Position numbers and translations under genes: made by a program | The notes under the pieces: generated by a model | The model's database searches: none | Seen by the model: only the letters and a program-made list of their open reading frames with translations | What the model was told of the DNA's origin: nothing | Virus record (IMG/VR): IMGVR_UViG_3300020394_001804 | Span: 1 to 33,191 of that record | DNA from: a virus | Direction: 5' to 3' (one strand) | DNA: 33,191 nucleotides | Part shown: piece by piece, positions 1 to 33,056 of the stretch | Position numbering within the stretch: position 1 is the first letter of the stretch | Layout: the number at the start of each line of letters is the position of its first letter

Positions 1-3000
1 ACACCATCATCAGTAAATCCAGAACCTAGTGAATCTGAAACAGCAATTGCAATCTCACTTATGCCACTCTGTGCTGCTGTGTGAACTTGAACCTTGGTGG
101 CATTTGTGGCATAAGATCCTGTACCTGCAGGATTCTTACCTCTTATTCTCAATGTCTGTACAGACCTCATACTACTGGAAGTTAGTGGGACTGCCAGAGT
201 GCCAAAAGTATATGCACCACCTACTCCAGTATTTGCTACAGGCACACCACCTGATAAGAATGTTGATGCACCATCTAGATTTGCATAAGTGTAATCAATT
301 GAGGAAATTACATTTCCTGAGGTAGACTCTGAGTTTGTAGCAGGATCAAGATCAACAGGTGCTGATGTGTTCTGGAAAGTCTGACCAGTAAAGTTTGTTA
401 CTGTTACACCTGTGAGAGATAAAGAGGGGCTTCCTGTATTATAGTATGGGATTCCTGATATGAATCTTTTTGTTCCTCCAGAACTCTCAGACAAAGTTCC
501 TGCTGTCAACGTAGGTGTAGTATTTAGGTCATCTTTGACAAAGGTAGTAAAACCACAACTACCAACAGTTGATAAATTTAAACCAAAATCATTCAATCCT
601 GTTGATATTTCACCAAGTGGTTTGGAAATATTAGCATTGAATACATGATAGAATCCAGTTGGGAATGTACTTGCTGAAATCCTATCATGAGCATCCCCTT
701 CTGCTGAGACAATTAGATCATTAAATGTGCCAGTCTCACCAACTGCAGTGGTGAATGTTGTTGTTCCAATACCTACACCATTTATTTGTGCTGATAGATT
801 ACCACTATGAGAACCATTGATATTTGATATACTATTAGTAACCACTGGATTAGTGGTTGCGATTCTTGTTACTGATGTTCCAGTAGCAATACCAGAACCA
901 GCCTGATTGCCTGTAAAGTTAGCACAAAGGGCAGGACTTGTTCCTTGAGAACCACTAGACATTGATAATGATGATGCTGTGATTGCTGTAGGGGCACTTG
1001 GTACAGCATTCAAAGTCATTGTGACTGTGCTTGTCCTTCCATTTTGAACAAGGGTGGCAGGTGTGCCATTGGCAGTAAGTGTTACAACTTTACTTCCTGT
1101 GCTTCCTTGGAATGTATGGAAGATTGGTGCATCTGTTCCACCAGGTGCTGCATTATTAGCAATAGTGTCATCAGAACTACCATCACCATAACTGTAAACA
1201 TAATCAGAGGCATTATGTGATGTATTTGTAAAAATACCAACTCTTCTATTTCTTCCAAATATATCTGTTCCATCATAAAGATCTCTACCATCATCACCAG
1301 TTCTATCACTTACAACAGTTGCAATACCTGTGAAGATTGATCTTACTTCTGGTTCAACTGTAATTACAACATTTGGAGAGATGAAGGGTGATGAAGTGTG
1401 ATCTGTGATTGCTCTTAAGTTAGTGGCAAATGTTGCTGCTATGCCTGCTGAATTATCAGCCAGTGCAAATGTGTGAGCAATAGTGTTACCAGTGTCTCCA
1501 GCTGCTCCACTACCAACATTTACATTATCTGTGCTACCATCACCATAGGTCCATCTGTATGTGTTACCAAAGTCAGCAAAACTACCAATTGTGCTCTCAG
1601 TAGTATTTGTAAAGGTTACAGCAAATCCAGAAGAGGATGCTGTATTGATACCTAAAATATTTGTTTGGGTAAAAGAAGGAGTATGTGTTGAATATACCTT
1701 AAAGGTATTTGTTGATGATGTTGGTATTTGAGTTGGGTCTGCTGCTGGATGACTGCTTAACTGCAGATTGACATTATATGCTGTGTCTGTTTCTGATGCA
1801 TTATTGTATGTGTGAATTGTTCTTCCACCACCAACACCACCAGGAGAGGTGTTTGCAGAAATAAATTCTGTAGTGTTATCTCCCCAATTAAGTGAATATG
1901 TTACTGCAAATCCTGCAACATTTGTTGTTGAGTTTTCCAGATATACTGGTGTTCCACTATCCCAATTTGAAATTGATGACCCACCAGCCACAGCAGCAAA
2001 CATGGAGAAAGCCACACCTGGATTTGGTGTGAAAACTGTGACGAAATTTGATTTAGTTATTGACTGACTGTGACCAGCACCCACACCAGAATTATTTCTT
2101 GCTACAACTGTGACTGTATTGATTCCACCATTTGATTGATTATAGGTGTGTGATGGGGTTGAGTCTGTTGAATCATTATCAGCACTACCATCACCCCAAT
2201 CAATATCAAATCTGTTTGCATTACCAGATGAAGTGATTGTCAGAGTAACATTTAATGGAGAACCACCAGAAACAACATCACCACTAAAGTCTACATCTGT
2301 GACTGCTGTATTCTTGATGACATTGAAGATAACCTCATTAAGATCATCAATTCCATCAACAATCTTTGTGGATGATGTAAATGTATTGAGAGCACCTGAT
2401 GTAATTAAATCACCATCAGTTGGTGTTCCAAGTGTCATGGAACCACCAACACCAGCAAATCTAGTTGCTGTAATGATACCTGATGTGTTAATGCTACCTT
2501 CAGTCCCAACACCAGATGCTGGAAGATCAGTGAGATTGGCACCACTTATAGCAGGAAGAGCACCAGTCAATTGACCAGCTGGGATGCTTGTTAGACTTGC
2601 ACCAGAACCATCAAAAGTGGTAGCAGTAACAACACCAGAGGAAACAACACCCTTTCTTGCAGTGATGACACCAACAGAATCAATATTAGTTACATCTTCA
2701 TATGTAAGAGTTCCAGCGATTGAAACATTCTGAAATGTAGAAACACCACTAACTACTAAACTATCTGCTGTTATATTAGCAGTGTTTGCTAATCCAGTGA
2801 TAGTGACTGCACCTGTAGCACCACTAATGCTGATATTAGACCCAGCAGCAATACTTGTAACAATGCCTGTTAAATCAACACCACTAACAGATGGCAATGT
2901 GGTGGGGAATCTACCTGCAGGGATTGTTCCAACATTAAGATTGGAAGCAGATACATTTCCATCAAAACTGGTTGCAGTTATAACACCAGAGACATTTATC

Positions 3001-3725
3001 TCACTAGCACCTGATATATCAACACCACCAGTGAATGTGGCTGCAGTGCCTGTGATGATATTTTCAGTAGATGCTACACCAGTTAGTCCTGATCCATCTC
3101 CTGAGAAACTAGTGGCAGTGATAATGCCACTACTGGCATCAAGAGTGATTGCTGTACCAACTTTTACAACATTTGTAAATGTAGCAGCAGTGCCAGTAAT
3201 AATATTGTCTGTTGATGCAACACCAGTCAATCCACTGCCATCACCAACAAAACTAGTAGCAGTGATTACACCAGTAAGATTTACATTACCAGTTCCAGAT
3301 ATTTCTTTTCCATTGACATCAAGATTTCCACCAAGTCTAGGTGTGGAATCTTGAAAGATACTTGTTATGCCTGTGTCAGAGGCACTTACTGTGACTATTC
3401 CAGCAGATAGTGGTGTTACAGATAGATTAGTCCCAAAATTAAGTGTGGCTGCAACACCAACTAAAGAATCATCATTATTAATTCTGATGCCTGAACTCTC
3501 AGCAGTAACACCAGTTAAGTTTGAACCATCACCCCTAAAGGATAACGCAGTTATAATCCCACTAGAGACAATTTGAGTGAAAGAGGCGCTACCTACAGTC
3601 GTGCCATCTCCAACAACCCCGTAGAGTTCACTGAAATTCTCATTAATTTTTCTGGCAGCAACTAATAGACTATCACCTGTTCCATCATTAGGTGCTGACC
3701 CAGTATTTATGCCTTGTCTAGCCAT
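1..3725 (-). CDS. Fibre-like virion protein with GDGS repeats and PKD-like domains (partial, C-terminus outside window)
   Basis: The frame opens at ATG 3725 and stays open to base 1, giving 1241 codons without a stop, so the C-terminus is missing. The N-terminus carries NTGSAPNDGTGD followed by INENFSELY (residues about 6-35), a widespread start of phage tail-fibre proteins. Residues about 56-432 hold degenerate repeats of the type GIITATSFxGDGSGLTGV. Residues about 480-910 hold four PKD-like beta-sandwich segments, each with a WGDGS/YGDGS-type motif and most with a following HTF/HTY. The remainder is Ser/Thr/Gly-rich with no motif I recognise. PKD domains in virion proteins are usually adhesive or structural, so a host-contact or tail-decoration role is inferred. 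It follows gp16 by 76 bp, where T4 has the large terminase gene 17. No transmembrane segment or enzyme motif is apparent. The structural assignment is fairly sure; the exact role is not. Confidence 0.8.
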   Translation of the reverse strand, partial: MARQGINTGSAPNDGTGDSLLVAARKINENFSELYGVVGDGTTVGSASFTQIVSSGIITALSFRGDGSNLTGVTAESSGIRINNDDSLVGVAATLNFGTNLSVTPLSAGIVTVSASDTGITSIFQDSTPRLGGNLDVNGKEISGTGNVNLTGVITATSFVGDGSGLTGVASTDNIITGTAATFTNVVKVGTAITLDASSGIITATSFSGDGSGLTGVASTENIITGTAATFTGGVDISGASEINVSGVITATSFDGNVSASNLNVGTIPAGRFPTTLPSVSGVDLTGIVTSIAAGSNISISGATGAVTITGLANTANITADSLVVSGVSTFQNVSIAGTLTYEDVTNIDSVGVITARKGVVSSGVVTATTFDGSGASLTSIPAGQLTGALPAISGANLTDLPASGVGTEGSINTSGIITATRFAGVGGSMTLGTPTDGDLITSGALNTFTSSTKIVDGIDDLNEVIFNVIKNTAVTDVDFSGDVVSGGSPLNVTLTITSSGNANRFDIDWGDGSADNDSTDSTPSHTYNQSNGGINTVTVVARNNSGVGAGHSQSITKSNFVTVFTPNPGVAFSMFAAVAGGSSISNWDSGTPVYLENSTTNVAGFAVTYSLNWGDNTTEFISANTSPGGVGGGRTIHTYNNASETDTAYNVNLQLSSHPAADPTQIPTSSTNTFKVYSTHTPSFTQTNILGINTASSSGFAVTFTNTTESTIGSFADFGNTYRWTYGDGSTDNVNVGSGAAGDTGNTIAHTFALADNSAGIAATFATNLRAITDHTSSPFISPNVVITVEPEVRSIFTGIATVVSDRTGDDGRDLYDGTDIFGRNRRVGIFTNTSHNASDYVYSYGDGSSDDTIANNAAPGGTDAPIFHTFQGSTGSKVVTLTANGTPATLVQNGRTSTVTMTLNAVPSAPTAITASSLSMSSGSQGTSPALCANFTGNQAGSGIATGTSVTRIATTNPVVTNSISNINGSHSGNLSAQINGVGIGTTTFTTAVGETGTFNDLIVSAEGDAHDRISASTFPTGFYHVFNANISKPLGEISTGLNDFGLNLSTVGSCGFTTFVKDDLNTTPTLTAGTLSESSGGTKRFISGIPYYNTGSPSLSLTGVTVTNFTGQTFQNTSAPVDLDPATNSESTSGNVISSIDYTYANLDGASTFLSGGVPVANTGVGGAYTFGTLAVPLTSSSMRSVQTLRIRGKNPAGTGSYATNATKVQVHTAAQSGISEIAIAVSDSLGSGFTDDG
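2430..3560 (-). repeat. Degenerate GIITATSFxGDGSxLTGV repeats in the fibre-like gene
   Basis: At least five related units are encoded on the minus strand near 3508-3560, 3223-3275, 3076-3130, 2935-2990 and 2585-2640, and a partial one lies near 2440-2490. Each has a core such as VITATSFVGDGSGLTGV. Spacing is irregular, with intervening segments such as DNIITGTAATF that also recur. Such repeats are common in the shafts of marine phage fibres. Confidence 0.7.
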
Positions 3726-3742
3726 TTTAAGTGGGTTTTATT

Positions 3743-3750
3743 TATTTATT
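3743..3750 (-). promoter_or_regulatory. Candidate T4-like late promoter for the fibre-like gene
   Basis: The 76-bp gap between gp16 and the fibre-like gene holds AATAAATAAATAAAA on the minus strand, including AATAAATA about 17 bases before the ATG. This resembles the T4 late promoter element TATAAATA. The gap is AT-rich, so chance occurrence is possible. Confidence 0.4.
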
Positions 3751-3801
3751 GGACCATGAAAGTGCTTATTTTGATACTTAACATCTCCATTTCGTTTATC
3801 T

Positions 3802-4188
3802 TTATTTATTTGAGTCTTCAGTTGAGTTTTTCTTTAATAGCTTCTGAAGTTCAGCAGTTGATCCCACAAATAAAGCATTGTTAGTGACATTTGTTGGACC
3901 TTTTTTCTCCTCAGTATTGACCTCCTTCAATTTCTGCTGAAGAGTCATCAATTTGTCAGTGGCATCAGAAACATTTTTAATTAATTGACCAGCAACCTCA
4001 TATGCTCTGGGCATTTCACTCTCCTGAGCAAGTTCAAGTATGCCATTGATAGCTTCCTGTCCTTTCTCAATAATTGAATATAAATTTCCACGAGTGTATT
4101 CATAATCTTTTTTAATATCCTCAGATTGAGATCTAATCTTCTCAATCTTTTTATCAGTTGGAGTAACATTAATCATATCATCTTCCAT
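3802..4188 (-). CDS. 16: Terminase small subunit gp16
   Basis: In T4, gp16 binds DNA and regulates the large terminase gp17 during headful packaging. This 128-residue protein is shorter than T4 gp16 (164). It keeps the recognisable pattern: a DYEYTRGN segment (29-36), a helical stretch with MPRAYEVAGQLI (59-70; compare SPRHMEVF in T4), and near the C-terminus ALFVGSTAEL (105-114; compare TVFMGSPTEL in T4). The middle is predicted helical and coiled-coil-prone. The start ATG overlaps the gp15 stop by one base (TGATG), indicating translational coupling. Position directly after gp15 matches T4 order and strengthens the call. Confidence 0.9.
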   Translation of the reverse strand: MEDDMINVTPTDKKIEKIRSQSEDIKKDYEYTRGNLYSIIEKGQEAINGILELAQESEMPRAYEVAGQLIKNVSDATDKLMTLQQKLKEVNTEEKKGPTNVTNNALFVGSTAELQKLLKKNSTEDSNK

Positions 4189-5189
4189 CAGAATACGTTT
4201 CCATCAAATCCAAAATCATCACCAACTTCAATCAATTCTGCATCAGCAGCAGTAATACTGAATATTGGAGAACCCAGTACATGTTCTGTAGCAGTGGTAT
4301 TATCCTGACCTCTCTTTACAGTGATATCATTACCACTGATTTTTACAACCCTCATATTCTCATTACCAATATCAATGTGAGTATTAACAGTAAATTTAGA
4401 TCCATCACTTACAGTAATAATAGTCTCTGTAAGATCTATATCCTCACTGAGTTGTGAAATTTGGGATTGATCATAATCTTTTGTAGCCCTAGGAACAACT
4501 TTATACGTAAGATCTCTATCATATGATCTGGAACTTTCTCCAGCAATGTAACCAACCTGAACTTTTCTGATGACCTGATCAGTAACATCAGGAATAGGAC
4601 CAAAGACATAAGTCTTGGCAGTAAATCTTAGTGTGTAGACAAGTGCTCTTCTTGTATCAAAATTACCCTCATAGTCATCCTCCATACTAATACTATCAAG
4701 TTGAACTGCCACATCTTTTTTTTCTTTTAAATTACCAAGAAAATTAATTGGTAAGTGATAAACAGGTTGAAAAAATGGTAAAATTTGTTCAAGTATCTGT
4801 AGAGCATCATCATTTAACTTAGACATAATGCTCAATTCAATTGACATGTTATATGGGACAGGTAAGTATCCCTTTTTTATTTTAGAACCAGAATCTGGAT
4901 CTTCAACAAAAAATTGTTGTGTTTGAGTTGTTTTTCTAGAGGCATCATACTGAACACCAATAAATTCAAATGACATTCTAGGAAGTGTCATTTGAACAGG
5001 TTTATTCAAATCAGGTTGCTGTTCTAATCTTGCTAAAAATTTCTGAGTTGGTCCATAGGCAAGGGGGACCTTGACAATGCTGACACTATCATCTGAAGAA
5101 TCTTTATGCTTGATTTCTATCCCATTAAAAAGAGAACCAAACCCTATGATAACAGATCTGAAAACCTCGTTATAAAAATACTCAAACAT
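4188..5189 (-). CDS. 15: Tail completion / sheath terminator protein gp15
   Basis: In T4, gp15 forms the hexameric ring capping the tail tube and sheath and joins the tail to the neck. The protein begins MFEYFYNEVFRSVIIGFGSL, closely matching T4 gp15 (MFGYFYNSSFRR). It also carries ELSIMSKLNDDALQILEQIL followed by PFFQP, and TRRALVYTLRFTAKTYVFGP, which align with T4 motifs. KVVPR near residue 232 matches T4 EVVPR. The protein is 333 aa against 272 in T4. The difference is a C-terminal extension of about 85 residues (249-333) with RGQDNTTATEHVLG, a module that also appears in the gp7 and DUF4815 proteins here. The stop overlaps the gp16 start by one base. A short AAGG lies just before the ATG. 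Confidence 0.94.
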   Translation of the reverse strand: MFEYFYNEVFRSVIIGFGSLFNGIEIKHKDSSDDSVSIVKVPLAYGPTQKFLARLEQQPDLNKPVQMTLPRMSFEFIGVQYDASRKTTQTQQFFVEDPDSGSKIKKGYLPVPYNMSIELSIMSKLNDDALQILEQILPFFQPVYHLPINFLGNLKEKKDVAVQLDSISMEDDYEGNFDTRRALVYTLRFTAKTYVFGPIPDVTDQVIRKVQVGYIAGESSRSYDRDLTYKVVPRATKDYDQSQISQLSEDIDLTETIITVSDGSKFTVNTHIDIGNENMRVVKISGNDITVKRGQDNTTATEHVLGSPIFSITAADAELIEVGDDFGFDGNVF

Positions 5190-5233: not shown

Positions 5234-6700
5234 TCAGGGCATTCCAAATGGGTTGCTTTCACTAAAATCAATGATTGAATCTGCAGTTGTTTCAAAGGTA
5301 TCATTATCAGCCAGAGGATCAACAAGATCATCTGACTCAGAATCAAATATTGTATATGTTGCTCCAGATTCTTGACCAATAATTTGCTCACCTGGACCAA
5401 ATTCACCATCAATAATTGATATCTCAAGTTTGTTAGTTGATGCATCCCATTCTTTGACTCTTGCTGTTGCAGAACTTGCAGCACCAACAATTATTTCATT
5501 GAACTTAAATGTTCCTGTGGCAGTGATACCAGGTGGTGTTTCAAATACTACATCAGGAACATTAAGATATCCTTGCCCTGGTGTAAGAGCGACAAAGGTT
5601 ACAATTCCAGCAGAGTTCACAAATGCAACACCACTAGCATCTTCAAATCCAACTCCAAATGGACTTCCAGAATCATATGATGATGTTGTAGAATCCATAG
5701 TGAGTGAATTGTTGGACATATCAATAATGCTGTCAATCAGTGATTGTGGGAAGGTGAATGCAACACCAACATTACCAGTATATCCAAATCCAGCATTGGT
5801 AATAACAACATTAGATACTCCATTATTGACCAGACTTGCAGAAGCAGCAGCACCCACACCAGTTGTGCTATCAAATGTAATTGATGGAGGAACTGTGTAC
5901 CCAGCACCAGTATTAGTAAGTAATACAGAGGCAATCCTGCCATCTATTCCACCAGTAAATCCTGTCAGGAAGGATGCTATTCCAACAGCAGTTGTGCCCC
6001 CATCAGGTGATGATGAAATACCAATTGTTGGTAATGTGTCATAATTTGCCCCAGCATCTGATAATGATATGCTGAGAGCACCTGTCTCTGATATTGAAAC
6101 TGTACCAGTTGCTGTTGATGCTGCACCAGGTCCAATCAGAGAAAGTGTCTGAATGTATCCAAGTTGTGCAATTTCATCATCTATGTCCTCAATACCAGTA
6201 TCAATGACCTCGTCTTCATATCTGTAAAGTTCACATCTTAACTCATAAACATAATTTTTCTTGAGTTGATAGAATGGTTGCTCATGCTCAACGTATTTGA
6301 TCTCAAATAATCTATCTCCAAGAGGGAAGAATATTAGATCTCCTTCTTTTGGTCTTGATGATAATTCAACATTCACAAGATTTTTCATTAAAGGTGAGAT
6401 ATATGTTTCATATCTCTCTCTTGAAATAATCAGAGTCAGATCATCTTGCTCTTGTATCCCAAACTTGGACAGCACAGTTCCCTGTCCACCATATCCCTCA
6501 AAATTATCAATATATGCTTCAATAGGATAAGCATCATTAAACTTGGATTCAATAACTTCTCTTATAACAGTATTCTTTGTAATGTACTTTCTAGGAATGT
6601 AATAGACTTCAACGCCATACATCCTGAGCTGCTCATTGACCAGACTCTGTATAAGATTTTGTTCTCCTACTGACCCATTAAGGGAAAATGGATTTAGCAT
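5234..6700 (-). CDS. 14: Neck protein gp14 with inserted Gly-rich module
   Basis: T4 gp14 and gp13 form the neck joining head and tail. The first 185 or so residues look like gp14: SVGEQNLIQSLVNEQLRMYG, then GVEVYYIPRKY, EAYIDNFEGYGGQG and LIFFPLGDRLFEIKYVEHEQ. The protein has 488 residues against 256 in T4. The excess is an insertion (about 190-430) with four GxGY-type repeats: DAGANYDTLPTIGIS, NTGAGYTVPPSITF, NAGFGYTGNVGVAF and TPGQGYLNVPDVVF. After these come IIGQESGATYTIF and an acidic tail ending in ESNPFGMP. Enlarged gp14 is typical of marine T4-like phages. The gene sits 6 bp after gp13, as in T4 order, with a weak AGGG upstream of its ATG. Confidence 0.9.
   Translation of the reverse strand: MLNPFSLNGSVGEQNLIQSLVNEQLRMYGVEVYYIPRKYITKNTVIREVIESKFNDAYPIEAYIDNFEGYGGQGTVLSKFGIQEQDDLTLIISRERYETYISPLMKNLVNVELSSRPKEGDLIFFPLGDRLFEIKYVEHEQPFYQLKKNYVYELRCELYRYEDEVIDTGIEDIDDEIAQLGYIQTLSLIGPGAASTATGTVSISETGALSISLSDAGANYDTLPTIGISSSPDGGTTAVGIASFLTGFTGGIDGRIASVLLTNTGAGYTVPPSITFDSTTGVGAAASASLVNNGVSNVVITNAGFGYTGNVGVAFTFPQSLIDSIIDMSNNSLTMDSTTSSYDSGSPFGVGFEDASGVAFVNSAGIVTFVALTPGQGYLNVPDVVFETPPGITATGTFKFNEIIVGAASSATARVKEWDASTNKLEISIIDGEFGPGEQIIGQESGATYTIFDSESDDLVDPLADNDTFETTADSIIDFSESNPFGMP
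5540..6060 (-). repeat. GxGYxxPPxVxF repeat block inside gp14
   Basis: Four protein-level repeats of about 20-40 residues are encoded here with consensus (N/D)xGxGYxxxPxVxF and Ala/Ser/Gly-rich linkers. The same motif recurs in the gp7, gp8 and DUF4815 genes of this window. No exact DNA repeat is evident, so the copies are diverged. Confidence 0.65.
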
Positions 6701-6706
6701 AAGATC

Positions 6707-7555
6707 TTACCCTATCAAATCCAAAGGTGGTATCTCATAGGTGCTGAGCATTTGAGTTCTAATTTCATCAATGTCTCTTTGTCCATCATCAAATAATTGT
6801 CTACCGTTAAATTCAATACCACCTGGCAATTTAACTCCCTGAAACTTGATGAGATTTTGCCCCCACTGTCTCTTCACCAATGCTGTAAAATATCTCTTCA
6901 AGAATGAATCATTCCAAACACCGGCATAGTCATTACCATCAACTGTCTTCCAACAATCAATTATTATAAAATCACCTTCATTAATATTTCCAAAATCGAC
7001 ATCAATATATAATCTATCTTGTCTTTGATTGAATCTAACTGCCTTATGTGTATTCAGCAAAAAATTCATTGTCTCAAGATATGTCATTGACATTGCAAAC
7101 TGCAACAATTCAAAGCTTCCAAAGTACCCTATCTCGTTCAAGAATAGTTGATACTTAAAACTAAACATATTACTCATGCTCATAGAATGAGCATCATCAT
7201 ATTGAAATATCTTGTTAATTCCTATAATTGATGGTGGCAATGGTATAAAATTACTATTCTCATAGAATACATAATCAGTTCCACTATCAGTAACAGTTGT
7301 AGAAGTTATACCCACACTTTGACCACTAGTTACACTAGGAGGTTTAGCCTTACCTCTACTAATGTCCTGTGATGTGATTTGATACTTTAGAAATACTTGT
7401 GTGACCCCATCAAAATGTCTCTCATGGAAAAATTGGAGAGCATCATCTAAAAGATCCTCTAATTGTTCCTCAGCAACATTGATTTCCAACATAGGAGCGC
7501 CCAATTGTCTCAGGGCATAATCTATCAGTCCTTGTCGAGATGCTGGTTGCGCCAT
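6707..7555 (-). CDS. 13: Neck protein gp13
   Basis: T4 gp13 forms the dodecameric neck ring that, with gp14, connects the portal to the tail terminator. The 282-residue protein (T4: 309) starts with a DUF-free helical region, SRQGLIDYALRQLGAPMLEI, followed by AEEQLEDLLDDALQFFHERH and FDGVTQVFLKY. This gp13 signature is common to T4-like phages. Further on it has FSFKYQLFLNEIG, VRFNQRQDRLYIDVDF and FIIIDCWKTVDG, and it ends with the NLIKFQGVKLPGG region and a helical tail. Unlike gp14 and gp15 it carries no obvious extra Gly-rich module; the residues 80-110 (GQSVGITSTTVTDSGTDYVF) may be a small insertion. A late-promoter-like CATAAATA lies 20 bases upstream and no Shine-Dalgarno sequence is visible. 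Confidence 0.9.
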   Translation of the reverse strand: MAQPASRQGLIDYALRQLGAPMLEINVAEEQLEDLLDDALQFFHERHFDGVTQVFLKYQITSQDISRGKAKPPSVTSGQSVGITSTTVTDSGTDYVFYENSNFIPLPPSIIGINKIFQYDDAHSMSMSNMFSFKYQLFLNEIGYFGSFELLQFAMSMTYLETMNFLLNTHKAVRFNQRQDRLYIDVDFGNINEGDFIIIDCWKTVDGNDYAGVWNDSFLKRYFTALVKRQWGQNLIKFQGVKLPGGIEFNGRQLFDDGQRDIDEIRTQMLSTYEIPPLDLIG

Positions 7556-8188: not shown

Positions 8189-11100
8189 GCAAGTGCTAAT
8201 ACTCTTAGATTTTTAATATTTGGAACATAAGCTTGATTTGTGCTTGTTCCAATAATTTTAATTCTAAAATTATTAAATGTAGGTAATCTGTCAATGGTAA
8301 ACTGCATCTCACTAAATGCTTGAGATCCTGGATTTGGTGTCAACAAATCCTTCTTGTTGAATAATTTATCTGATGATCCATCACTATTGTCAGGATTAAT
8401 AATAACACCAATTCTATCAGGATCCATGTTATTATATCCAGGGAAAGGTGTAAATACAGTTTCAGCAAGTGATTTATCTTGATTTACCGCATACAGCACT
8501 CTTACATCATTAAATTGGTTTACATAGGAGTCAAGAATTACTTTCAATGAAGTTGATGGATTTTCAAGTTTGATAAGTTTTGTGCAGTATATGAATTTTG
8601 ATGGATCATCACTTACATTATTCACTCTTGAATCAGTTGCAAAATTAGTTATAGGTGAATTAATTCTATTACTAATTAATTGAACTGAGGCTTGATCCAA
8701 ATCAATCATTGGTGAAACCTTTGAATTAGATGTGGACAAGTTGACATTCATGGATAGTGATTTAGATCCAGGAAGTCCACTTAGATAAGTTGTTTCATTA
8801 ATTTTTGAAGCAACAATTCTTGTTGATGTGAAATAATTTGTTGCATTTAGAGTAATTTCTTCAAATCCTTGATCAACATATGATGATTCAGTACCATCAA
8901 TACTACTACCACTAACAGTCCTCATGGATGCTGTGATATTAGTCTGAGTTGGAGTAATTAGATTAACTTTTGGAATAGCAATCTCAAAGGGAATATTATA
9001 AGTTGCTTTTCCATTAACACCTCCAACTGATTTAGTTTCACTAAATTTAAGAGCAGAAAGTGTGCCAGACCCTGATCTGTCAGTGCCATCAGTATTCATA
9101 CCAACTTTTATGTGATATGAATCAAGTGTGATTGGATTGCTTACTGTGGCATCACTAAGGGTATGAGTTTTATTAACCCTTCTTAGTGATACACCACCAA
9201 TCTCATATTTGAACACTGCATCATTTGCAGCATGGGATTGTGCTTTAGTATTGTCAACACCTCTAGTAATACTTGTAAGAGTTGAACCAGAGGTGCCTGT
9301 ATAAGAAATAATTTCATTTCCAATCTTAATATATCCAGGATTAGTAGCACTAACATCAATATTTTCAAACATAGTAAATATTCCGACAGGAGAAACACTA
9401 ATTGCATCACCACCACTTGATGTGTTTGGATAAGCAACTGTAAGTTTAGATGGATCAGTATCAGATTCAATATCTCTTAATGTTACTTTTCCTGACCCAT
9501 GCATACCATGATTTCTGTGGAATATCTTCATATGATTTCCATCAGAAATTTCAGTGATAGGTGAAAGTGGAACAAGATTTCCTCCCACATTACCATTGAG
9601 AGATGTATCACCAACACCAACACCATCAAAGAATAAGAAATTATTTGCTGTGGTATTAAACTCTCCTTGAACATCTGTAATTCTCAATTCATTATCACCA
9701 AGCACGTTTGCAACACTGAATCTAATCCCTGAACCAAGATTGTCTGCACCAATAGTTGTAGGTGTCAATTCATCACCTATTTGATATCCAACTCCACCAT
9801 TACTAATAGTAGCAGCAACAGCAACACCATTTATTACTGTGATATTTGCAGTTGCATTTTTTCCAGTGCCAGTGAGTGATGTCAATGAAACATCCTCAAA
9901 TAATTCACCTCCAATAAATGGTGTGTATCCAATACCAGCGTTGGTGATTGTTAAATCACTGGTAACTGAAGAACCCAGGGATATCAATTTACCACTTGCT
10001 ACAACTGAACTAAGTGAGTCTTTTTGGGTTATTGTGACACCTGGTTCCAAACCAATATTTCCAGCCAGAGTGCTTCCTAATCCAACCCTCACTTCATTTC
10101 TTATAATTTCAACAGCATCTTTACTAATTAATTCTTCTTTCTGTGGAAGATTTTGGTTAAAGAATTGTACATTTCCATTAGAAACAAAGTCAGCTCTGTA
10201 AAGTGTAAATTTCAAATCTTCATATTGACTTGGAGTCCATGTTGATCCACTTTGTGATTTGAAGAGTGACCCAAGAAGTGGCTGAGTTGATACTAAAGTT
10301 TGTGCAGATTCTTCATTATTAATGGTTGTCACATCAATCTCACCCAATCTTGAAATCCATACTCTGTAATCAGTTACATTGGCAAGTAAAACTACAGCAT
10401 ATTCCCTTTCTGCTGAGAGGTAAATTGGATAATCAAATTTTACTTTTGTTGCTACTGTACCATCATTTGATGTTCGAATTTTAGGATTAAGGGGTGTTCC
10501 TGGATCAAGAACAACTAATGATCCTGCTATTCTCTTGGTAACAGGAAGTCCAAGTTCTACCTCTCTTATTTCAACTTCTACTGGTCCATCAAAATCAATA
10601 GATTGGAAGAATATATCAATACTTGTGACAAAGATACCCTCTTTATCATCCACATCAAATGTCTGAGCAAGAGGATCTCTTACATTTCCTGTCAAATCAC
10701 CACCACTATCAATAGTAATTGGTTCTGATATTTCTAAGTCTGAGGCAGTATCTCTTACTGTGTTTCTTGTCTCTTCAAAACTATCATCAATAGTTGCAAC
10801 AGCATTTCTAAGTGCAAGAGTGACCTCTTGAGTTTGATCAAGATCACCTTGTGAATAGAAAATTTCCTCTGCAGCAGTGTTGAATAATCCTTCTACTTTG
10901 CTATTTGTTGGACTACTTGTAAGTCTAAAAGTATTTCTTCCAGTGTCAAAAGCAGGAAGAGATGTATCAGCAGACGTATCTGGAACTCTATAAGAACCAA
11001 TAATCACACCTATTTGATCAGTGATCAATCTTATATCACTCACTCTTGCTTGAGCACCACTTGTTTGACCTACGAGGTTCATTCCTTTGACTACGTTACC

Positions 11101-14100
11101 ACCTGTTTCTGGAAAATTTTCATCTGCAAGATTTTTTGTGTCAATATTCAAAATAGTTGATGACTCTGAATATGTTGTAGGAATAGTATTATCTCTATTA
11201 TATGGATTTTGTGTGAAAATATCAGTTGGATTATCTCTGTCCCCATATCTGTGATTGGACTGACAAAGAACAAATACTATTTCATTATTTGACAAAGTAT
11301 CAGTATTTGCTGTGGTAAGGTTCACTGCACCCCTTACTTGCTCTCCCACCTCAAATGTTCCAGACACCATTTCAATTTCAAGTAGTTTAGGAGTGCAGAA
11401 TCTTGAAATATCAATATTATCAAAGAAAGGATAAACTCTAGTTAAGGATTTCATCCCCTTAGCATTAAACTCAATATTTCTTGATCTCATTTTATGGACG
11501 ATTTCTCGTCTTACAACTCTATTACCAAATGAACTAGTTGGTCTGGGGAATACTTCTCTTACAGTATTCTGTGTACCTCTTCTTCTTTGTGAAAGCTCAA
11601 CACCAACTTCAGTTCTTGTTGTAACTTGTAAACTTCTTCTAGGTGTGGTTTCAACTTGGAAAGTACTTGGTACAACTCCATTTCTTCTATCAAGGGCACC
11701 CTGATCAAATCTCTCTACGAATTGTTCAGCAGTTCCTTGTACAAAACCACCACCATCCTGTCTCTCTCGTACATCTTGTGATAAATTAACATCAACATCA
11801 ACACCAGTGGTTTCCCATGCTCCCCAAATGACTGGACTTACCCCTGATCTTGTTCCATCAGCATTATCTTGTAACTCAACTTGTAGTGCGGAGGCAACAC
11901 CCTCCAATGAACCCATCATCACAATATCATTTACTTCCAGTTCATTGACTTGAATCCAAACATCTGCTGTTGGATCAAGTGATATTGTACCTTGATAGAA
12001 TCTTACAAGAAATGGTGTAACACTTTCAGTCCTGGTTGCATAGGATTGTTTTAACCATTCAACTTCACTATAGTTAAGTGAAATAATATTAGAAACATCA
12101 CCATCATTTTTGATATTTCTAGCAATATTATCACCTAAAATATTTGCATATCTTGGATCATTTGCGAATTTCACTGTACCAATACCAGAAATTGCATCAG
12201 TGCCAAGTTGAAGATTGATAGCAGTGCAGTAATGAGCTGGTCTTAGAGTGTTATTTGCTCTATCAATGCTATTTCTTATTCCTGTTTCTGAATCTTGCCC
12301 CTTTCTATCAGCAAAATTATCAGTGAAAAATCCATTTTTAAACCTGTCTAAACCATTTGCATCAGGAACAAATTGAGAATTAACATTATTTTCAAGTCTG
12401 CTAAGAGAGGTAAAATATTCAACATTAGCTAATCTTTTTTCAATTCGTCCAATATCATTCATCTGATATCTCTTATGATCAATGAATTCAACTTGCGCTT
12501 GTCTTGCTGTGTAAAGATATGCTGGTAATGATACTTTTGCAATATTCAATGCACCAGGGATATCACCTGGTGGTATTGGAAAGTCAGTAGGAGTTCCTTT
12601 TTTAACTATAAATTCACCATCTTTTGAAAGAAAAATACTGTCTATTCTTGGTAGGTAATATGAATAATCAAGAATAATTGACTCACCATCTGCAACAACA
12701 TCAGCAGAACTGTGATTTCCATCAAGGAATGATCTTCCCAAGAACTCCAGGGGAGATCTAGATCCTTGTGAAACAGAGTAATCATTTACTCTTGGTCTAA
12801 AATCAATAATATCAGTGTGTCTAGTCCCTTCTGTTTCAGATATTTCAGTAGTATAGTTAAAATCATTGTATGAATTCACTGTGGTGATGTCACCCGTATC
12901 AGATGAATTATAATTTGCTTTTAAGAAATATACTTTAATTTTTCTTGTAGGAACTGAAGCCTCTGGTTTTCTTACAATTCTTGAGTAATCATAATGAGTG
13001 TTGAAGAATCCACCATCCAAATTAAAATTGGATGTAATATTCTTACTACCTTTACTCACATCAGCTGCAATGCCACTTATGCCAGAAGACTGGAAATTAA
13101 TTATTTCATTTTCTAAGAATCTTGAATCATTTTCATAAATGAAATCTATTGAAGTTTCAGATCTCCTACCAACATATACAGCCTGAGCACCTGATGTTTG
13201 ACCAATTATATCCTCACCAAGAATTAAGTCATCTGTTTTTGCAGTTGGACCATCCAATGACCCAGCAGTCATATTTGGTGATGTGGGAGTTTCTGATTCA
13301 TTTGCCTCAAATATACCATATATCCATCTCACATCAGGCACATTCAAAGATATGATTCTATCCTGCACTCTTGTTCCATATGGATAGTTTCCAAATGTTA
13401 ATCCATCATTTAAACTTGTAGCGGTAGAACCAGATGCAGATTTTGAGGATTTATCAATAACTAAAGTTGAAGCTGGAACTCTTACTTTAGTTTTAGATTT
13501 AATTTTTGATTTTCTAATAGTTGTAATAAGAAGTGCATCAGGATCATCAATACCACTTAAACCAACAAATCTAAGAGTTTGATTTCCTGAAGCAAATACC
13601 AAATTTTTTGATGTAATTGGTTCAACAGCACCATCAGATCTAGTCAGTGAGTATCTTTCCTCATCAAATGCCAAAAATACTTCATCAGTGCCTGTGCTTA
13701 CTGTAGAACTCTCACCAGAGGTGTTCAGAGTGACATTAAATGATCTTCTTATATCTAAAGTGACATCACTAACATCAATTGACTCAATATTTTTATTTTG
13801 AAGAACACTGTAAAGTGAATTATTACCTGCAGCATTACCAGCAGGTACTTGTTCAACAAAATTAGATTTAAGAATGGTAAAATCTGAAACACTGACTGGA
13901 TCAATATTCAACAATCCACTACAAATTCCTGCTACTGAGGCTACTGTGCTGATTCCAATGGAAGTTGTATTTACTTCAGTAACTCTAGCAAAATTAATGT
14001 CTGATTGACCAGGGACACTAAAACTAACTAAATCACCAATTGTTGTGATCCCAGCAAATGCCAATCCAGGAGATGTCACAATTGACTTAAGTGGACTACC

Positions 14101-32146: not shown

Positions 32147-32374
32147 TCAATCTTCATAGATTCTACATTCATCAGCATCAGGTTCCACTTCACAAAAAAG
32201 TTCTAGTGCTGTTGGATCATGGTGATCACCAGCTTCAATTTCTTTCTTATGGTTTTTTGCATAAACTTCTAGTTCATGTAGTTCTGATTCAATGTGACGT
32301 CTTGCCTGAGGTGATGTTGTTGGATCCTCAAGGATCTTCTTATCTACCTCAATGTGTTTCTCTATTGATTCCAT
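32147..32374 (-). CDS. Small acidic unknown protein (75 aa)
   Basis: This is a 75-residue protein I cannot name. It is predicted to be mostly helical (MESIEKHIEVDKKILEDPTT, then ARRHIESELHELEVYAKNHK) and ends in an acidic segment with two cysteines (CEVEPDADECRIYED). No membrane segment is seen. Its start lies 26 bases inside the end of the 235-aa gene and is preceded by AGAGGAAG, the best Shine-Dalgarno sequence in the window, which supports this ATG. Its position directly upstream of gp25 suggests a late or assembly-related role, but that is only context. Confidence 0.7.
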   Translation of the reverse strand: MESIEKHIEVDKKILEDPTTSPQARRHIESELHELEVYAKNHKKEIEAGDHHDPTALELFCEVEPDADECRIYED

Positions 32375-33056
32375 CTTCCTCTGGAGTGAGTGATTCGTTA
32401 GTATTATTTAACCTCTCTTGAGAGGTTTTCCAGAAATAAGAGTCTTGATCTCCTAACCCCATCCTGTCATATCCATTCTCTACCTGATAATATTCTGTTG
32501 AAACTTTGAAATCAGGTGTCTTTGGATCATCTGGTGTGAGACTATTATCATAGATTCTCATCCTGTTATTAGGATAGAGAGCATACTGCCCATTGACAAG
32601 TTCAATTAAATTATGTGACTTGTGTTCAGCAGGATTTTCACTGGTTGCATAATCAATAACATCTGGGTCTTGATGATAATTATCAATTGTACAGACATAG
32701 GTGCCCTTCATGGTCCCATGGTCTCTAGTATAGATCTCATAGTCCATAGATCCAATGAATTGTTTTTGAACAGCAACAACACCATAATCCATACAATTCC
32801 AGAACTGTAGATTCTGTAGTGACATATCAGGGTCTGGAAGAACAGGTTCACTCAGGAATGCACTGATAGGTAGTTTGTCATACATTGCAGCATAATCAGG
32901 CAGATAGGTTTCAAAGTAGAATGCTCTTCCTGGTATACTCTTGGCAGATACCCATACACCTTTAACAAACTCTCCGTGCCCACTCTGATGGTCTGTAAGG
33001 TACTCTTTTCTTACCCAGACCTCTGTGGATGGTAAATTGCAGATTAAACATGACAT
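32349..33056 (-). CDS. Unrecognised protein upstream of gp25 (235 aa)
   Basis: The protein has 235 residues, is soluble-looking and rich in aromatic and acidic residues, with no signal peptide or membrane segment. It starts MSCLICNLPSTEV, with a single CxxC pair and no second pair close by, so a zinc site is doubtful. The middle has MDYGVVAVQKQFIGSMDYEI, then YVCTIDNYHQDPDVIDYATS, and LVNGQYALYPNNRMRIYDNS. Nothing matches a T4 protein I recognise. It is the first gene after a terminator and has TATATAAAA 17 bases before its ATG, so it may head the transcription unit containing gp25-gp6-gp7. A structural or assembly role is inferred from location only. The 3' end overlaps the 75-aa gene. Confidence 0.75.
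   Translation of the reverse strand: MSCLICNLPSTEVWVRKEYLTDHQSGHGEFVKGVWVSAKSIPGRAFYFETYLPDYAAMYDKLPISAFLSEPVLPDPDMSLQNLQFWNCMDYGVVAVQKQFIGSMDYEIYTRDHGTMKGTYVCTIDNYHQDPDVIDYATSENPAEHKSHNLIELVNGQYALYPNNRMRIYDNSLTPDDPKTPDFKVSTEYYQVENGYDRMGLGDQDSYFWKTSQERLNNTNESLTPEEDGINRETH

Follow-up and report, generated by a model that had tools for sequence, protein, structure and literature searches.

What is the long gene that a T4-like phage carries directly behind its small terminase gene, and to what might its product be joined? The question is raised by a virus record, linear and 33,191 bases long (IMGVR_UViG_3300020394_001804; the whole stretch is hereafter called the window), whose main open reading frames (ORFs) lie on the minus strand and in which gp16 is followed, after 76 base pairs (bp), by the start of a fibre-type ORF of at least 1241 codons. 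A reading of the sequence alone (hereafter the sequence-only reading) had taken its product for an adhesion or decoration protein inserted into the packaging operon. Based on domain architecture, gene adjacency and comparison with cultured phages, we think it reasonably probable that two proteins make up an articulated attachment fibre of this T4-like cyanophage and that the gene encodes its proximal segment.

A modular protein with a conserved C-terminal domain

The fibre ORF behind gp16 is genuine and open at the contig edge, as the sequence-only reading had described it, and it contains the GDGS repeats reported there, which are of the GDGSxLTGV type. Full-length copies are found in two close relatives, L086 and L087 (1440 and 1555 residues; 93% and 91% identity to the window protein), and the window copy is 199 codons shorter than that of L086. 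The protein is modular, from a gp10/gp9-type N-terminus through a repeat shaft of variable length and four PKD-like domains to a conserved C-terminal domain of about 530 residues, hereafter the socket (Table 1). Residues 3-48 align with T4 gp10 (E 1.9e-7) and T4 gp9 (E 0.0096); in a full-length search just residues 3-51 align significantly to gp10, and the remaining gp10 domains show no significant similarity. The shaft differs in length between close relatives, being longer in L087 and L089. The socket starts at residue 912 and matches phrog_8578 with E 1.8e-18 for the truncated window copy and 6.4e-52 for the full-length copy of L086.

The PKD-like array spans residues 447-912. When the whole protein is scanned against Pfam, one stretch is matched (residues 491-553, PKD_4, E 5.8e-5, 23.5 bits, under the 27-bit cut-off), and the curated PKD cut-offs (PF18911/PF00801) are not reached by any segment, the best scores being 25.4 against 27 for PKD_4 and 20.2 against 23.5 for PKD, both from domain 1. 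The hidden Markov model scan proposed by the sequence-only reading thus matches domain 1 only, and below the cut-off. Its count of four domains is better served by comparison of the segments with each other: hhalign ties PKD2-PKD3 at 96%, PKD2-PKD4 at 95.6% and PKD3-PKD4 at 86.9%, but PKD1-PKD2 at 61% and, weakly, PKD1-PKD3 at 40% and PKD1-PKD4 at 33%. Among 36 relatives scanned at E <= 0.01, PKD_4 is found in 10 and PKD in five (best E 5.6e-8), and the PKD3/4 columns are occupied in 27 of the 36 aligned rows, the window counted.

The promoter-like element also noted ahead of the gene corresponds to two overlapping ATAAATA motifs in the gap after gp16; both copies are kept in all five members of the window lineage and are absent from L109. 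Across the window, however, the motif is rarer than expected by chance (7 found, all on the coding strand, against 14.7 expected), so that a promoter role is only suggestive.

A constant partner gene

In relatives, the gene after the fibre gene encodes a conserved N-terminal domain of about 185 residues (the plug, phrog_9417) and a variable tail. Loci were drawn from the best 80 of 543 viral stretches retrieved with the socket and the best 80 of 529 retrieved with the first 185 residues of the partner. Wherever the fibre end and sequence beyond it are visible (83 loci, earlier loci included, L086 and L087 of the window lineage among them), the next gene is homologous to the 326-residue protein of L086; two further loci leave no room for it. 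Conversely, a socket lies directly upstream in 78 of the 80 loci found through the plug, the other two lacking room. Pooled, socket and plug are adjacent in 156/156 loci with both ends in view; the socket is seen alone in two loci (34 and 15 bases left) and the plug alone in four (1 to 301 bases upstream). The 157 pairs represent 112 distinct DNAs, with 84, 27 and 14 socket clusters at 90, 70 and 60% identity. In the genome_contigs set, the pair is adjacent in four of five loci. The window contig ends before the position of the partner gene, which the window phage presumably carries as well, given its presence in L086 and L087.

The two parts of the partner differ strongly in conservation. Its first 178 residues match in 11130/11130 comparisons (median 72%) and its tail in 5160/11130, some tails being cut by contig ends; the socket has a median identity of 57% across pairs. 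Partner length ranges from about 178 to 2068 residues, the longest of those listed following the socket in L157-L159. The upstream side is less regular: outside the largest group of loci, various genes precede the pair (gp16, ORFs of 96 or 489-539 residues, others) while the partner stays constant, and neither phiCbK gp72 nor CcrSC gp129 gives a significant match to the gene preceding the pair in marine loci.

Serial chains in cultured phages

The socket matches 52 records of a phage collection (40 Caulobacter and Bertelyvirus, eight Brevundimonas, two Agrobacterium, one Salicola and one Sinorhizobium), with no Synechococcus or Prochlorococcus record among them; the plug matches 51, from the same organisms minus Sinorhizobium, whose plug was then found by profile. 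In phiCbK, gp73 is the socket protein and gp74 the plug protein. In CcrSC, gp130 ends in a socket, gp131 has a plug at its N-terminus and a socket at its C-terminus, and gp132 starts with a plug; the profiles behind these matches had been trained without the CcrSC and phiCbK proteins (socket E <= 6.3e-72, plug E <= 8e-29). With a profile retrained on the phages concerned, all ten cultured phages inspected have equal numbers of sockets and plugs in strict socket-then-plug order (the first socket of Phosso is in two pieces), and eight of the ten have a middle protein with both domains. Such chains occur in Caulobacter, Brevundimonas, Agrobacterium and Sinorhizobium phages. Plug and socket at opposite ends of one protein are the features required of a link in a serial chain.

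The socket of L086, modelled alone from 89 rows, reaches a predicted local distance difference test (pLDDT) score of 94.4. Against the PDB, Foldseek gives best TM-scores of 0.11-0.17 to the query, and VIA a best Z of 7.2, mostly to immunoglobulin-like (Ig-like) sandwiches over residues 4-302, with a chain of the HFTV1 tail at Z 6.4 for residues 313-531; matches with Z below 8 may be mere common arrangements, and the socket fold may be one not listed. Among viral models, it matches proteins of CcrColossus and Atu_ph07 and a 629-residue protein of the Tenacibaculum phage PTm1 (E 9.7e-15, 13% identity, TM 0.45 to the query), which lies beyond the reach of sequence comparison; neither the socket profile nor Atu_ph07 gp325, used as queries, gave a match in PTm1. 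By length and organism, this library entry was equated with ORF-290. The product of ORF-291, directly downstream, carries a plug (E 3.8e-4; phrog_9417 E 1.7e-5; hhalign 89%). The gene after it, ORF-292 (L279 14941-16797), encodes a neck protein, similar to head closure Hc2 (phrog_679, E 2.3e-9).

One cassette on several N-termini

Relatives located after gp16 in L092-L101 are 33-69% identical to the window protein, depending on the segment, and share with it PKD1, PKD2 and, where the contig reaches it, the C-terminal domain. They give no PKD3/4 matches, lack the gp10-type anchor, and have two small genes between gp16 and the fibre gene. An Mtd_N start is found in six of the 36 scanned relatives, including L098 and L099, and many further relatives begin like 'MAISRIGGKALKANLERD'. 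One of the 36 PKD/socket proteins (L163 5469-9605) has collagen-like repeats at its N-terminus. With gp10-type starts in the window and L086-L089, and Mtd_N, collagen and other starts elsewhere, one PKD and C-terminal cassette is thus carried on several N-termini. That the gp10-type anchor might be common to all fibres of the slot after gp16 is ruled out, since among the interval ORFs examined it is present only in the window and L086-L089; it is also matched by other genes of cyanophage isolates.

A candidate articulated fibre and its alternatives

In the scheme that we favour, the gp10/gp9-type N-terminus would dock the fibre to the virion, with baseplate gp7 as the most likely site, by analogy with the binding of the T4 gp9 N-terminal domain to a gp7 domain described in PMC3004832; the window fibre would accordingly be located at the baseplate. 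The repeat shaft and the four PKD-like domains would act as a spacer, and the socket would hold the plug of the next gene's product, this physical contact presumably joining the fibre segments. The variable remainder of the partner would form the distal segment: a conserved joint combined with a variable partner tail suggests that receptor choice resides in the partner, which probably binds the receptor and probably includes the fibre tip. The notion of an adhesion or decoration protein is thereby refined, as the architecture and the invariant partner suggest a proximal segment with a C-terminal joint and not the receptor-binding tip itself.

An unlikely alternative, in our view, is that the protein is a terminal adhesin whose C-terminal domain binds the host, and that the downstream product serves its maturation as a cap, chaperone or accessory adhesin. 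Adhesins often contain PKD and Ig-like domains, and T4 gp38, which matures gp37, is a model for a chaperone-type partner; the Ig-like folds over residues 4-307 of the C-terminal model would fit such a role, and a short partner gene right behind a fibre gene is a chaperone layout too. However, the partner is long and variable, the combination of an N-terminal partner domain with a C-terminal socket in CcrSC gp131 would be needless for a chaperone, and the socket varies less between such dissimilar phages than a receptor-binding tip would be expected to. Somewhat less probable again is a location of the pair away from the baseplate, in a filament attached to capsid or neck that would be the first structure to catch the host. 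In phiCbK, L136 and PTm1, the genes beside the pair are head or neck genes, and published work reports a head filament in phiCbK (PMC3556154), whiskers 'primarily capsid-associated' in Atu_ph07 (PMC6102473) and head fibres of 50-100 nm in PTm1/PTm5. These are three lineages and a correlation only, the PTm1 socket being recognised by structure only, and the N-terminus in the window is of the baseplate gp10/gp9 type. Moreover, in PMC3556154 the authors' candidate for the phiCbK filament is gp76, not gp73 or gp74, and the filament protein is not established in the virion; hair-like fibres are also described, in PMC7824862, for coliphage 121Q and Pectobacterium phage CBB, and our matches include no record from either Escherichia or Pectobacterium.

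It is very improbable that the two genes are neighbours through conserved operon order alone, their products making no contact. Core genes gp13-gp16 keep their order too, but the genome site, the upstream gene and the anchor vary from one pair to another while the pair itself stays intact, siphophages and myoviruses alike have it, and eight of the ten cultured phages inspected carry it duplicated as a chain. Several observations nevertheless weigh against the articulated fibre. The upstream neighbour matches the 143-residue gene of L136 in 56/87 loci (the largest group), so that part of the adjacency may be plain synteny, and distant exceptions may be missed among loci limited to the best 80 of each search; one locus of the genome_contigs set, L276, holds fragments only. 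The sequence search of the PDB gave no match for the socket profile and, for the plug, a best E of 0.056, to a designed protein; PTm1 ORF-290 has no sequence match to the socket profile; and the main text of the phiCbK genome and proteome paper contains neither of the terms 'gp73' and 'gp74'. A first structure model, comprising the PKD domains and the C-terminus, was too poor for use (pLDDT 45). Beyond the articulated fibre of the window itself, a broader and more tentative possibility, for which we claim limited confidence, is that phrog_8578 and phrog_9417 form a reusable plug and socket for long serial filaments, originally head filaments (phiCbK, Atu_ph07, PTm1), which marine T4-like phages reuse on interchangeable anchors, including the gp10-type anchor in the slot between gp16 and gp17. 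In that case, connector proteins of the head filaments of phages would be identified.

Comparison with known systems

The slot has been described before, and the fibre adds a member to known fibre kinds; what would be new is the plug-and-socket pair, a variant of modular fibre assembly for which adjacency and chain architecture speak. Our literature search turned up no work on a joint of this kind, nor on cyanophage fibres with PKD domains. The phiCbK-like Caulobacter phages have homologous socket and plug domains in the same order (gp73, gp74), but they are siphophages with the pair beside head genes, and phiCbK gp73 (647 residues) has only about 170 residues before the domain, too few for a long shaft or for a PKD array as large as that of the window. 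T4 gp10 and gp9 resemble the window protein over the N-terminal 45 or so residues; their gene position is different and only that segment aligns significantly. The phrog_6942 and phrog_30742 tail fiber families match the window protein in the shaft region only. The proposed fibre would work in the manner of the T4 long tail fibre gp34-gp35-gp36-gp37, which PMC3004832 presents with a proximal segment at the baseplate and distal segments in series, except that one reusable domain pair would couple the segments. No similarity to the T4 long tail fibre is seen among the PDB or PHROG matches of the window fibre; no gp34 chain is among the PDB matches up to E 1, although which gp34 chains the library holds was not checked.

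If the favoured reading is true, two PHROGs families of 'unknown function' are the matching halves of a fibre joint in cyanophages, jumbo phages and Caulobacter phages, and the receptor-binding part is to be sought in the variable tail of the partner and not in the PKD protein. It would also explain the transfer of one adhesion cassette between different anchors, and offer a candidate, open to test, for a component of phage head filaments.

The slot between gp16 and gp17

The gp16-gp17 hotspot has already been published: PMC3037559 refers to a hot-spot 'between gp16 and gp17', credited there to Millard et al., 2009, and PMC2984593 (also citing Millard 2009) to 4 to 14 inserted genes in the g15-g18 interval. 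The window fibre occupies the same slot of this hyperplastic region, which has variable cargo and fibre genes in isolates too, tail-fibre genes lying right after gp16 in P-TIM68 and S-SM2; in syn9 the interval holds plastocyanin, terminal oxidase and dehydrogenase genes. The isolates differ in that no cyanophage isolate of the collection matches the window-type C-terminal domain. Of what the sequence-only reading proposed here, the cargo hotspot stands, with a role in host range at most putative; 'inserted' does not hold, genes between gp16 and gp17 being the rule in cyanomyoviruses.

The layout of such a region is found in the window lineage: gp16 is present in the window, and the near-identical L086 contig has gp17 at a distance of 13.2 kb downstream (gp16 end 19441, gp17 start near 32667) and also supplies the missing fibre C-terminus. 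Loss or displacement of gp17 is thereby ruled out, and the arrangement that would have spoken against the sequence-only reading, gene 17 elsewhere, does not apply. The interval in L086 contains the fibre, the 326-residue partner, a 902-residue protein with an Mtd_N start, a 783-residue tail fibre and more. The third gene of the cluster, that of the 902-residue protein (10649-13357; Mtd_N E 1.1e-6), adds to the interval a second fibre, whose anchor is of a different type. Across relatives, 20/20 loci with gp16 and gp17 in one piece carry 1.8-7.2 kb between them (median 5.0), with the exception of L103, in which the two genes overlap by 8 bp and gp17 is 57% identical to that of P-TIM68. The PKD/socket gene of L103 lies upstream of gp13 instead; thus the module occurs at other sites. 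In L098, taken with L106, the interval measures about 21.3 kb, the longest among the loci here, and has many fibre-size ORFs. That a PKD fibre is the usual occupant of the slot is ruled out, neither profile matching L006-L085; the socket is found in none of the 80 nearest gp16 loci (44 with at least 2 kb past gp16). In many of L006-L101, the first ORF past gp16 is similar in size, at 109-112 residues.

Surroundings in the window

Table 1. Features of the fibre gene and of neighbouring genes, in window coordinates
Feature	Position	Strand	Evidence or remark
Fibre ORF, 1241 codons, incomplete at 3' end	3..3725	-	ATG start, no stop ahead of contig end
N-terminal anchor, T4 gp10/gp9-type, residues 1-60	3546..3725	-	alignment to T4 gp10 and gp9; phrog_958
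Repeat shaft, residues 60-446	2388..3548	-	phrog_6942 tail fiber E 2.2e-26
PKD-like domain 1	2025..2387	-	Pfam PKD_4 E 1.5e-5, 25.4 bits (cut-off 27), scanned alone
PKD-like domain 2	1683..2027	-	hhalign: PKD3 96%, PKD4 95.6%, PKD1 61%; no Pfam PKD match alone
PKD-like domain 3	1350..1685	-	profile comparison; no Pfam match alone
PKD-like domain 4	990..1352	-	profile comparison; no Pfam match alone
C-terminal domain (socket, phrog_8578), first 330 of about 530 residues	3..992	-	cut by window end
gp16-fibre gap, 76 bp, two overlapping ATAAATA motifs (3739-3749)	3726..3801	-	function only suggested
gp16, terminase small subunit	3802..4188	-	phrog_445 E 9.5e-51
gp15, tail sheath stabiliser	4188..5189	-	PF16724 E 1.4e-81
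gp14, head closure	5234..6700	-	phrog_460 E 5e-125
gp13, head-tail adaptor	6707..7555	-	phrog_211 E 1.7e-43
gp7 homologue, 4038 residues	17437..29553	-	phrog_2885
CP12 gene	32147..32374	-	PF02672 E 3.3e-11
'Ferredoxin' gene	32349..33056	-	phrog_3704

The window virus is a marine T4-like cyanomyovirus, whose nearest isolate by DNA is P-TIM68 (Kyanoviridae; 73.7% identity across 22% of the query). Its minus-strand gene order is phrog_3704 'ferredoxin', CP12, gp25, gp6, gp7, gp8 and a 2551-residue phrog_358 protein, followed by two small genes, gp13, gp14, gp15, gp16 and the fibre ORF. The counterpart of the phrog_358 protein in S-SM2 is annotated VrlC. The gp7 homologue is large enough that it could offer several docking sites for fibres. 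The CP12 and 'ferredoxin' genes adjoin each other beside gp25 and, as host-type metabolic genes, point to a cyanobacterial host.

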